The notes under the pieces were generated by a model, which had not been told where the DNA came from, did not search any database, and saw only the letters and a list, made by a program, of their open reading frames with translations. From contig NZ_SIJK02000001.1 of NCBI RefSeq assembly GCF_004762035.2, positions 84,302-136,400 of the forward strand: DNA of 52,099 bases, written 5' to 3'. This DNA is from Candidatus Chloroploca mongolica. GTDB taxonomy: Bacteria > Chloroflexota > Chloroflexia > Chloroflexales > Chloroflexaceae. Shown here piece by piece: positions 46,065-52,099 of this stretch. A program made the position numbers and the translations under genes. The first letter of the stretch is position 1. Every line of letters starts with the position of its first letter.

Positions 46065-47108
46065 TTAGCGAAGTTCGATGCCCGGCGTGGCGATGACCTC
46101 GCCGATGGCCCAGCATGGTTCGCCGTGCGTTGCACAAGTGGCCTGGAGTTGTGCGGCGGCAGCGGGAGGCAGGGCGATCAGCAGGCCGCCCGAGGTCTGT
46201 GGGTCAAAGAGGATCAGGCGGATTGCTTCTTCGATCGAGGCACTGTAGTGGACGTAGCCTTCACCTTCGAGGTACTCGCGATTGCGCCGTAAGCCACCGG
46301 GGACATACCCCTGGCGGGCGGCTTCGAGGGCCCCGGGGAGCAGGGGAAGATTCGCCGTTTCGATGCGCAGGCCAACCGCGCTGCGCCGGGCAATTTCGGC
46401 GGCGTGCCCAAGCAAGCCGTAGCCGGTAATATCGGTCGCGGCATGGACTTCAACCGTGGCACTCAATTCAGCGGCACGGCGATTGAGCCGGAGCATGCTG
46501 GCAACGGCGGCTTCGAGGTGCTCGGCTGGCGCGGCCCCGCGTTTCAGCGCGGTGGTAATGAGACCAGTGCCGAGTGGTTTGGTCAACAAAAGACGGTCGC
46601 CGGGGCGCGCACCGACTTTCGCGGTAATACGCGCCGGATCAACGAGACCAGTGACACAGAGGCCGTATTTTGGCTCGCGGTCAACCACGGTATGGCCGCC
46701 AGCAACGACGGCGCCTGCCTCGGCAGCCTTATCGGCCCCGCCTTGCAAGATCGCTGCGGCGATCGCCGGGTCGAGATCGTCGGGGAAAGCCGCAATGGCG
46801 AGCGCAAGGATCGGTCGCCCGCCCATCGCATAGATATCGCTGAGTGCATTGGCCGCCGCGATGGCCCCGAAGGTGTAGGGGTCGTCAACAATTGGCGGAA
46901 AAAAGTCCACCGTCTGGACAAGCGCCGTCTGCGCGTCGAGTTGATAGACGGCCGCATCGTCACTGACGGCCAACCCGATCAACAGATTGGGACTCGCTGG
47001 CAGTTGCAGGGTTGCTAACAGTTTGGAAAGGGCACCCGGCCCCAACTTTGACGCTCAGCCAGCGCTGCTTGCCAGACTGGTGAGGCGTATCTGCTCACGT
47101 TGATCCAC
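46065..47108 (-). CDS. selD: Selenophosphate synthetase, itself a selenoprotein (in-frame TGA)
   Basis: About 347 residues. The start is GTG 47108 with GGAG at 8 nt, reading MDQREQIRLTSLASSAG, then TGA (47055-47057) as Sec18, then ASKLGPGALSKLL. The TGA falls exactly at the catalytic Cys17 position of E. coli SelD, with the essential Lys20 retained and Cys19 replaced by Ser. Downstream it has AVSDDAAVY, TVDFF, ANALSDIYAMGG, AGGHTV and LFDPQTSGGLL, typical of SelD. It makes selenophosphate from selenide and ATP for Sec and selenouridine synthesis. Without recoding, an automatic call would begin at TTG 47045 and lose the active site. selA, selB and selC are not in the window. Confidence 0.92.
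47020..47057 (-). promoter_or_regulatory. selD Sec codon and candidate bSECIS
   Basis: TGA 47055-47057 is followed on the minus strand by a possible hairpin. AGTTGG-GGC (47039-47047) pairs with GCC (47031-47033) and CCAAACT (47020-47026), with a small bulge and apical loop CGGGT (47034-47038). The loop begins 17 nt after the TGA, within the spacing of bacterial SECIS elements. Folding was done by eye. Confidence 0.6.
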
Positions 47109-50379: not shown

Positions 50380-51123
50380 TTATGGGACGATGGGGGTGGG
50401 TGGGGCGGGGATGTCGCAGGCGAGGCGGCGGACGAGGTCGCGCCCGTCGCGTTCGCGGATTTCGACGATGTGGGTGCCTGGCCGCTCGTCACCGATCTTC
50501 AGGTTGAGCTTGTACCGTCCGTCGGCCCGCGAGAAGCCCCCGCCAACCGGGCGGCTGTTGAAGTAGAGCAGCAGCGCCGTATTGGGCTCGGCTTCGCCCG
50601 TCAACTCGACGGTGGACTGGGCAAAGCAGGTCAGGATCTCGATCCCATCAGGGAGACTGGTGGGCGTGATGGTGGCAACCCCGCCATTGGGGGTTCCGGT
50701 CGCCGTTGGTGTTGATGTCAACGTGGAGGTGGATGCTGCGGTTGGGTTCCCGTTGTTTACCGGGGTGGCCGTTGGTGTATTGGTTCGGGTTGGGGTGGCC
50801 GTAGGTTCATTCATTGTGCCGCCGCCTGCTCCGCCCTGGGTGGCGGTTCTGGTAGGAGTTTGGGAGGGCAAGCTTTGTGCGGTTTGCGTCTGACTCTCTG
50901 GTGTTTTCGTCAAAGGGTAGGCGGCTGTTGCTGTCAGATCAGTAATACGCTGTGCTGTTTGTGTCTGAATTTTCTGTGCTGTTTGTGTAGGGTATATCGT
51001 AGACGTTGGTGTCGTCGTTTGAGCTGAGGTCATACCTGAGATCGTGCCACTCACTAAGATGAGCAGCAAGACAACCCCGGTGAAAATGAGGCTCAGTGGC
51101 AAGAAGAGATTGTTGCGTTGCAT
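50380..51123 (-). CDS. Membrane-anchored Thr/Pro-rich surface protein
   Basis: 247 residues. An N-terminal membrane segment (LPLSLIFTGVVLLLILVSG) is followed by a long Thr/Pro/Ala/Gln-rich stretch (TPTATPV-type repeats, about 35-155), typical of cell-surface linkers. A C-terminal domain of about 85 residues (VELTGEAEPNTALLLYFNSRP, then SRADGRYKLNLKIG) follows, which looks like a small Ig-like beta sandwich. Role unknown. Lies next to the selenoprotein gene with a 12-bp gap and the same strand. Confidence 0.7.
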   Translation of the reverse strand: MQRNNLFLPLSLIFTGVVLLLILVSGTISGMTSAQTTTPTSTIYPTQTAQKIQTQTAQRITDLTATAAYPLTKTPESQTQTAQSLPSQTPTRTATQGGAGGGTMNEPTATPTRTNTPTATPVNNGNPTAASTSTLTSTPTATGTPNGGVATITPTSLPDGIEILTCFAQSTVELTGEAEPNTALLLYFNSRPVGGGFSRADGRYKLNLKIGDERPGTHIVEIRERDGRDLVRRLACDIPAPPTPIVP

Positions 51124-51135
51124 CGAGGTCTGCTC

Positions 51136-51912
51136 CTAACTTCCTGAAGCCTGGGCAATCAGATCTTGAAAGACAGTAAAGGGCTGCGCGCCAATCAGGG
51201 TACGTTCGCCGAGGCGAAAGACCGGGCGTGAACGAATGCCCTCGGCGGTGGCAGCGTCGTGATCGGCGCGGACGGCAGCGCGATGCGTTGCGGCGTCGAG
51301 GCAGGCGTTGAGTTGCGCGAGGTCTACGTCGGCGTCAGCAGCGGCAGCGGCAAGTTCCTGCTCGGTGTCAAAGAGGATCTGATTGTAGCGCGCATAGATT
51401 GCCTGACGCATTGGCCAGAACTTGCCCTGGTCGGCGGCGCATTCACTGGCTTCGGCAAGCCGCAGCGAGCGATCGCCAAGCTGGACGAGATGGCGATAGA
51501 CCAGTTTCACAGTTCCCGTCTTGATATACTGCTCGATCAGTTGTGGCTCAGTCTCCAACACGTGGAGTGCACAGGCCGTTCAGAGAAAATCGGAAAACAT
51601 CTCCAGGGTCACTGGGGCTTCAGGATCGCCAAGCACATGATAGCCCTCGGCGGTACGACTTTCGGCGATTGTTGCCGGTGGGGCGACGGTGGCGGTTGGT
51701 GGCACAGGTAGGTCAGTTGGTCGAGGCGGGAGCGTTGGGGTGGCGGCAACCTCGGGGGTTGGCAACGCTGGCGTCGCAGTTGGCGCAGCGGTAGCGACGG
51801 CGAGCGTTGGTGGCACTGCGGTTGGCGACGGCGTCACAACGACAGACCCGCCGCACCCGACGAGCAGCAGCGCCCACACTACGAGCAGCATTGGTATCCG
51901 ATAGACCATCAT
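51136..51912 (-). CDS. DsbA-like thiol-disulfide lipoprotein, selenoprotein (UxxC)
   Basis: About 258 residues counting Sec. The start at 51912 follows AGGG; the signal ends at the lipobox LLVGC. A Thr/Pro linker leads to VLGDPEAPVTLEMFSDFL, then TGA (51580-51582, codon 111), TAC (Cys114), then ALHVLETEPQLIEQYIKTG. The TGA occupies the first position of the CxxC active site, and the same frame continues with normal DsbA-like helices (HLVQLGDRSLRLAEASECAADQGKFWPM) and the cis-Pro segment RSRPVFRLG. Without recoding this would look like two genes (51136-51561 and 51580-51912). With selD also recoded, Sec is the most likely reading. Confidence 0.9.
51553..51582 (-). promoter_or_regulatory. Sec codon and candidate bSECIS of the DsbA-like gene
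   Basis: TGA 51580-51582. Downstream on the minus strand, CTCCA (51563-51567) pairs with TGGAG (51553-51557) around loop CGTGT (51558-51562), which begins 17 nt after the TGA. An outer GGC/GCC and TGTG/CACA pairing could extend it. The loop distance is the same as in selD. Folding was done by eye. Confidence 0.6.
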
Positions 51913-51973: not shown

Positions 51974-52099
51974 GGTTACGCTGAAAATGGGGGAACGTGG
52001 TTCCCCCATTTTCAGCGTAACCCTGGTGAGCTATAAGGGTTCCGCATTTTCAGCGTAACCCTGGTGAGCTATAAGGGTTCCGCATTTTCAGCGTAACCC
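51974..52099. repeat. Palindrome plus 38-bp tandem repeat at the window edge
   Basis: A 23-nt inverted repeat (51974-51996, 52000-52022) is followed by tandem copies of a 38-bp unit containing ATTTTCAGCGTAACCC and GGTGAGCTATAAGGGTT (from about 52007, running to the window end). Each unit can itself fold through AACCCT/AGGGTT. The copies are adjacent with no unique spacers. The array continues beyond the window. Confidence 0.8.

Follow-up and report, generated by a model that had tools for sequence, protein, structure and literature searches.

Organization of the locus

The window, by which we mean the whole stretch of 52,099 nucleotides analyzed here, carries two adjacent minus-strand genes near its end: a selenolipoprotein gene of the NF041057 family (DsbG-like, Rcas_1661 family; 51136..51912) and, downstream of it, a conserved partner gene (50380..51123). 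The selenolipoprotein gene starts with an ATG at 51912 and stops at a TAG (51138-51136), and its predicted product is 258 aa long with Sec at residue 111. The frame has a single in-frame TGA (51580..51582, minus strand), with 110 codons on its 5′ side and 147 on its 3′ side, and the codon occupies position 1 of a UxxC motif (UTAC, within SDFLUTAC); the earlier note had placed a TGA at the first Cys of a CxxC motif (U-T-A-C), and its coordinates are exact. Upstream of the gene, at the end of the window, there is a tandem repeat (51999-52099; period 38, 2.6 copies), and in the adjoining 51975-52023 its motif appears, by eye, to recur as an inverted repeat.

The translation begins with a putative signal peptide (51853..51912) that includes a lipobox, L-V-G-C (residues 17-20; Cys20), followed by a Thr/Pro/Ala-rich linker with approximate limits of 51664..51852. 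In the AlphaFold model, the part before residue 84 is of low confidence and lacks secondary structure. From about residue 84 on, two Pfam models and no others match at E 0.001, Thioredoxin_4 with 89.1 bits and DSBA with 34.5 bits, and 168 residues, essentially this domain, are modeled with a pLDDT of at least 90. The top Foldseek hits are Corynebacterium diphtheriae DsbA/TsdA (4pwo, 7unn), Wolbachia DsbA1 (3f4r), and Bacillus subtilis BdbD (3eu3), with E values of 1.7e-13 to 7.1e-11 over the first nine rows and BdbD within the top ten. The DsbA-like character that the earlier note saw past the TGA is supported. The protein has the features of DsbA-fold Thioredoxin_4 proteins, namely, the Trx fold with an inserted helical domain, the UxxC motif, and a conserved Pro; this residue, Pro230, is invariant in 55 rows of the family alignment, and its cis conformation is assumed from the superfamily. 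It has the DsbA-type fold in common with DsbA/TsdA, BdbD, and Wolbachia DsbA1 but differs from them in its Thr/Pro linker, in the R that precedes the cis-Pro, and in that Sec replaces the first Cys. Two further cysteines, Cys158 (51439-51441) and Cys204 (51301-51303), are nearly invariant (≥90%) across the family alignment and could be a second, structural pair.

A catalogued selenoprotein family

The protein matches NCBIfam NF041057 with 257.7 bits (E 1e-76; residues 10-254 against positions 2-246 of the 247 in the model). This is an equivalog model, "Rcas_1661 family thioredoxin-like (seleno)lipoprotein", with a curated cutoff of 190 bits, and as its name allows for both Sec and a lipoprotein, this kind of protein has already been named by the NCBI curators; the protein here does not differ from it in kind, although the model lumps subfamilies with and without the downstream partner described below. 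The closest named record is from Candidatus Chloroploca asiatica B7-9, with 97% protein identity. In passages of a 2026 review, the "DsbG-like protein" is listed with NF041057 and a UxxC motif, citing Kryukov and Gladyshev 2004, and the functions of such selenoproteins are described as largely uncharacterized (PMC13188914); a 2022 review places the DsbG-like family under pfam13462, also with UxxC (PMC9312934). The words "Chloroflex" and "lipoprotein" do not occur in the main text of either review. A 2006 paper counts two DsbG-like selenoproteins, and three selenoproteins in Chloroflexi whose identities are unnamed there (PMC1794560).

The family is thus already catalogued, the gene is a further member of a known selenoprotein family, and the selenoprotein itself is not novel. 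The earlier note had considered a Sec-containing exported thiol oxidoreductase unusual in this lineage, a view that does not hold, since the family is described in NF041057 and the reviews, and, of the 158 class genomes searched, 51 are at or above the cutoff (one of them, G019, only by summing neighboring matches). True DsbG/DsbC disulfide isomerases have an N-terminal dimerization domain, which was not found here, with only Thioredoxin_4 and DSBA matched in Pfam at E 0.001 and no secondary structure in the modeled N terminus; "DsbG-like" is a name and not a statement of membership.

Evidence that the TGA codon is read as selenocysteine

A profile search of the 158 genomes gave, among the matches listed, 57 places that are over the cutoff on their own, and together with three below it (one in G028 and two in G018) these constitute a family sample of 60 loci. 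Two other TGA-flagged places below the cutoff, G057:C1:687154, in which no motif was found, and G011:C335, with three TGA codons flagged and a CPYC motif, were left out of the counts, and G019:C221, which is over the cutoff only with summed neighboring matches, is outside the sample. At the active-site position, 41 of the 60 loci, the window among them, have TGA and the other 19 have a Cys codon (TGC or TGT), with CTAC among the Cys-form motifs. The earlier note had suggested looking for Cys homologues with CTAC in relatives, and these exist. TAG codons flagged inside the matches in G039 and G036 lie at the C-terminal ends of the matches and are ordinary stops.

One alternative is that the TGA is a plain stop, either created in a DsbA-like gene of the Cys type by a nonsense mutation or a sequencing error, or serving a deliberate truncation. 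Standard annotation would indeed end at the TGA, a Sec-blind pipeline truncating the protein at residue 110, and a DsbG-like example appears only in truncated form in its annotation, according to PMC9312934. Three observations argue against it: the recurrence of TGA in 41 of the 60 loci, covariation in the hairpin described below, and purifying selection past the TGA, where synonymous and nonsynonymous codon differences are 16:4, 23:3, and 22:7 over 146 codons in the three pairs formed by three Chloroploca genomes. We reject a pseudogene or sequencing error on these findings, and we regard a stop of any of these kinds as highly improbable.

The TGA is followed by a bSECIS hairpin (51553..51567, minus strand) with a 5-bp stem, CUCCA/UGGAG, and the loop CGUGU. 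The 5′ arm is at 51567-51563, the loop at 51562-51558, and the 3′ arm at 51557-51553, and the TGA-to-loop distance is 17 nt; the earlier note had placed the apex 17 nt after the TGA. The stem is paired in all 195 cells of an alignment of the 41 TGA loci, window included (39 distinct sequences, gapless from the TGA). Between columns 16-20 and 26-30, both partners are changed in 42 cells and a single partner in none, four of the five pairs vary on both sides, and the covariation score is 0.585, compared with 0.245 in shuffles; none of 500 shuffles scores as high, or matches the paired fraction or the number of doubly changed cells. The other two measures of the five are not above the shuffles (pairs with both-side change, 172/500; further pair types, 500/500). 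Slid registers are only 25 to 64% paired, and RNAalifold, run unguided, recovers the same helix. The earlier note had put forward a bSECIS prediction as a check, and a bSECIS hairpin is supported.

In the Sec loci, CGUGU is the commonest loop, with G as its second base, and the geometry (a 5-nt loop, 5-bp stem, G in second position, and spacing of 17 nt) agrees with the bSECIS model as given in PMC13188914, which has a loop of 3 to 9 nt, a stem of 4 to 16 bp, G at loop position 1 or 2, and spacing of 16 to 37 nt. Set beside the bSECIS energy criterion of −7.5 kcal/mol or lower, the minimum free energy is −10.2 kcal/mol for the 42 nt from the TGA, for which flanking pairs are needed, and −5.5 kcal/mol for the 27-nt hairpin alone. 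The hairpin is not seen in single-sequence folds of several family members, and an Rfam scan of the window reports one tRNA and nothing else. At the Cys loci (n = 16), 66% of the cells are paired; pair 19-27 is broken in 15 loci and a further pair in 7. These loci are also above most shuffles (3/500 for cells paired), which may reflect relic pairing, the relatedness of the loci, or constraint on the codons.

The genome of the window has the full complement of Sec genes: tRNA-Sec with a UCA anticodon, SelA, SelB, and a TGA-bearing selD. The tRNA-Sec scores 70.8 bits against a cutoff of 47 with a model that also has hits in 14 of 14 control genomes (5 over the cutoff), and ARAGORN names it tRNA-SeC. 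The selD gene is in the window itself (46158..47087, minus strand; TIGR00476, 379.2 bits), where it was detected by HMM search and not by a pattern search, and it has one in-frame TGA (47057-47055) near its start. The predicted fold after this TGA has the loop CGGGU 16 nt downstream, so the suggestion that the spacing is the same in the two genes holds to within 1 nt. A strong SelA match is present in 35 of the 37 genomes with a U member (34 over the cutoff, and a partial one at 220 bits in G076), compared with 6 of the 15 with C members only (Fisher p 5.7e-5); the association is based on 57 of the 60 loci, the remaining three being Cys forms in genomes already counted. The two U-type genomes without a good SelA match, G057 (none) and G067 (weak only), are 75% and 71% complete.

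These data also bear on a different reading of the codon. TGA is reassigned in some lineages, and it could be read here by near-cognate or reassigned decoding, for example, as Trp or Cys, without Sec insertion. We find nothing specific in its favor. The Sec machinery is present, and the association of U members with SelA leads us to reject it; moreover, the intact hairpin goes with the TGA forms, and the aligned residue is the catalytic Cys. It is as improbable, in our estimation, as a plain stop.

We conclude, with a probability of roughly 0.93, that the gene is a genuine selenoprotein gene coding for a thiol-disulfide oxidoreductase of the DsbA fold with Sec as the first residue of its active site (U-T-A-C); the enzyme would be exported and lipid-anchored, with Sec as the nucleophile. 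The earlier note had called it a second selenoprotein, a UxxC lipoprotein. A UxxC selenoprotein with a lipoprotein-like start is supported, along with the Cys homologues, the bSECIS hairpin, and the Sec machinery. Of the two outcomes named as fatal to that view, neither is seen: the downstream frame is under purifying selection and not decayed, and the genome has the Sec machinery.

Exchange of selenocysteine and cysteine within the family

The family tree has two groups, subfamily A (45 rows, SH-aLRT 96) and subfamily B (14 rows, SH-aLRT 99), with the G057 member outside both. The tree is of a quick kind, with long branches flagged, and its outgroup is the TGA paralogue group described in the last section; as that outgroup was selected for TGA, the tree does not allow inference of ancestral Sec in the wider family. 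Mapped onto it, the Sec/Cys label requires 6 changes, at least 5 of which are forced by the starred branches, compared with 17.0 in shuffles. One Cys form (G052:C82, L149; CTAC) is nested among Sec forms; its bSECIS stem is complete and its genome has SelA. It is most simply viewed as a recent Sec-to-Cys change with the stem as a relic. With a covarying bSECIS and a Cys form that retains the whole hairpin, the family is a good natural series for studying the replacement of Sec by Cys.

Active site and redox role

The family assignment, the Sec codon, the covarying bSECIS, the Sec machinery, the purifying selection past the TGA, and the two-gene arrangement are each supported at the level of sequence. 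The UGA would be decoded by SelB and tRNA-Sec at the hairpin, the loop of which starts 17 nt downstream, and the product would be exported and anchored by lipid. A surface role, as suggested in the earlier note, is plausible. In the DsbA superfamily, the N-terminal active-site residue attacks and the second Cys resolves; by analogy, Sec111 would attack disulfides and Cys114 would resolve. Having Sec at this position lowers the pKa and makes exchange faster.

In this superfamily, the position that precedes the cis-Pro modulates redox power and the choice of substrates. It is R before Pro230 in all 45 rows of subfamily A and Q in 13 of the 14 rows of subfamily B (one gap), and T before the conserved Pro in all nine members of the TGA paralogue group and in every one of 24 distant Cys relatives except for one gap. 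The active site is thus distinctive, and the difference between A and B is in step with the presence of the partner.

In organisms that lack DsbB, DsbA-type proteins are commonly oxidized by VKOR, and the enzyme could be a VKOR-coupled general oxidase in the role of DsbA, rather than an isomerase or reductase. In favor of this role, the genome of the window has VKOR, and the folds closest to the model are C. diphtheriae DsbA/TsdA, with BdbD in the top ten; the genome also has a DsbD_TM protein. However, VKOR was not found in 8 of the 17 U-type genomes, five of which are 98 to 100% complete, and R or Q before the cis-Pro, as opposed to T in the distant Cys relatives, suggests a specialized active site. 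A DsbD_TM match over the cutoff is present in 41 of the 41 genomes searched, although DsbD_TM proteins also serve cytochrome c maturation. The incidence of VKOR and DsbD_TM weakly favors a reductase or isomerase, and we consider the oxidase role rather unlikely; the action of the selenoenzyme would be closer to that of a reductase or isomerase than to that of a VKOR-driven oxidase.

A conserved two-gene arrangement

The partner gene (50380..51123, minus strand) codes for 247 aa and starts 12 nt past the selenoprotein stop codon, which is overlapped by a GGAG. Its product looks like a secreted protein: a hydrophobic segment at the N terminus is followed by a Thr/Pro-rich linker and then, at the C terminus, by a two-Cys Ig-like domain (50404..50652), in which about 75 residues are bracketed by the two Cys. 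The earlier note does not mention this gene. Neither Cys varies among the 25 sequences of alignment A4, although this invariance, like that of VGGG, is in part a product of selection, as the seeds were picked by a pattern containing the Cys pair and VGGG.

Searches with the partner in the window find nothing in Pfam up to E 1 or in NCBIfam up to E 0.001, and there is no NCBIfam match for either of the two partner proteins scanned. A PDB profile search with the domain finds the Ig-like domain of a biofilm-associated surface protein (7dm0; E 6.2e-7), matching positions 11-66 of the partner domain, a match that stops short of spanning the two Cys; compared with the 7dm0 protein, the partner has one such domain, located behind the hydrophobic segment and Thr/Pro linker. 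An AlphaFold model made from three sequences is all-beta (mean pLDDT 77), with weak, general Ig-like resemblances in Foldseek.

The partner first surfaced as family 1 of a neighbor scan in which raw open reading frames from both strands, shadow frames included, were clustered, and its distribution was determined with a profile built from 31 partner domains. It is downstream and on the same strand in 41 of the 45 subfamily A loci, spanning two families of the order and including 16 of 16 Cys forms and 25 of 29 Sec forms (for G075 and G076, the partner rows are placed in the near-identical loci of G073 and G072, with partner matches also on their own contigs). The domain starts 456 to 758 nt past the enzyme stop in 35 loci and 1020 to 1843 nt past it in six (the G030 group and G039). 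None of the 14 subfamily B members has an adjacent partner, three of these having less than 900 nt of downstream sequence, and a profile scan of the G057 neighborhood finds no partner adjacent there.

We did not find the gene pair described in full-text literature searches or in the Chloroploca genome paper (PMC6180586), although older or specialist sources could mention it, and the conserved pairing looks to be the new part of this system. A neighbor with a Cys pair provides a concrete, testable candidate client for the enzyme, and the pairing is the part that warrants a test at the bench.

We propose, tentatively and at somewhat short of even odds, that the selenoenzyme has among its clients the Ig-like domain with the Cys pair in the product of the next gene. 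The larger arrangement that this would imply is also tentative, and to the same degree: subfamily A and the two-Cys Ig-like protein could constitute, in filamentous phototroph-type Chloroflexota and relatives of these, a two-gene module dedicated to disulfides. A Sec enzyme tethered at the surface would maintain or remodel the disulfide of a single, specific cell-surface protein, and this partner would have been kept through repeated Sec/Cys changes. It is nearly an even chance that the enzyme is as described and the downstream gene is a bystander, a cotranscribed surface protein kept for unrelated reasons and not a client. Partner-type domains are present in 64 of the 158 genomes, at other loci as well and in some genomes without an NF041057 match over the cutoff (e.g., G006 and G013), and four subfamily A loci are without a partner; two of these have just 258 and 777 nt of downstream sequence (G078 and G040, respectively), and two have more than 3 kb and are apparently partnerless (G028 and G031). 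Against a bystander, the adjacency extends over two families of the order and over Sec and Cys forms and is absent from the sister subfamily, and the partner Cys pair is of the kind on which such an enzyme acts.

A second group of TGA-bearing paralogues

At least nine further TGA-bearing DsbA-like paralogues, with UPFC or UPYC motifs, are present among the matches listed (L137, L138, L139, L141, L142, L145, L146, L147, and L148); they were picked for their TGA, and the group is not a census. They form a clade separate from NF041057 (SH-aLRT 99), and the four of the nine that were scanned score 141 to 173 bits, under the NF041057 cutoff of 190. They have a hairpin of their own in another register, with 44 of 45 cells paired between columns 20-24 and 30-34, and they are likely a second seleno-DsbA group that is left out by the current model.
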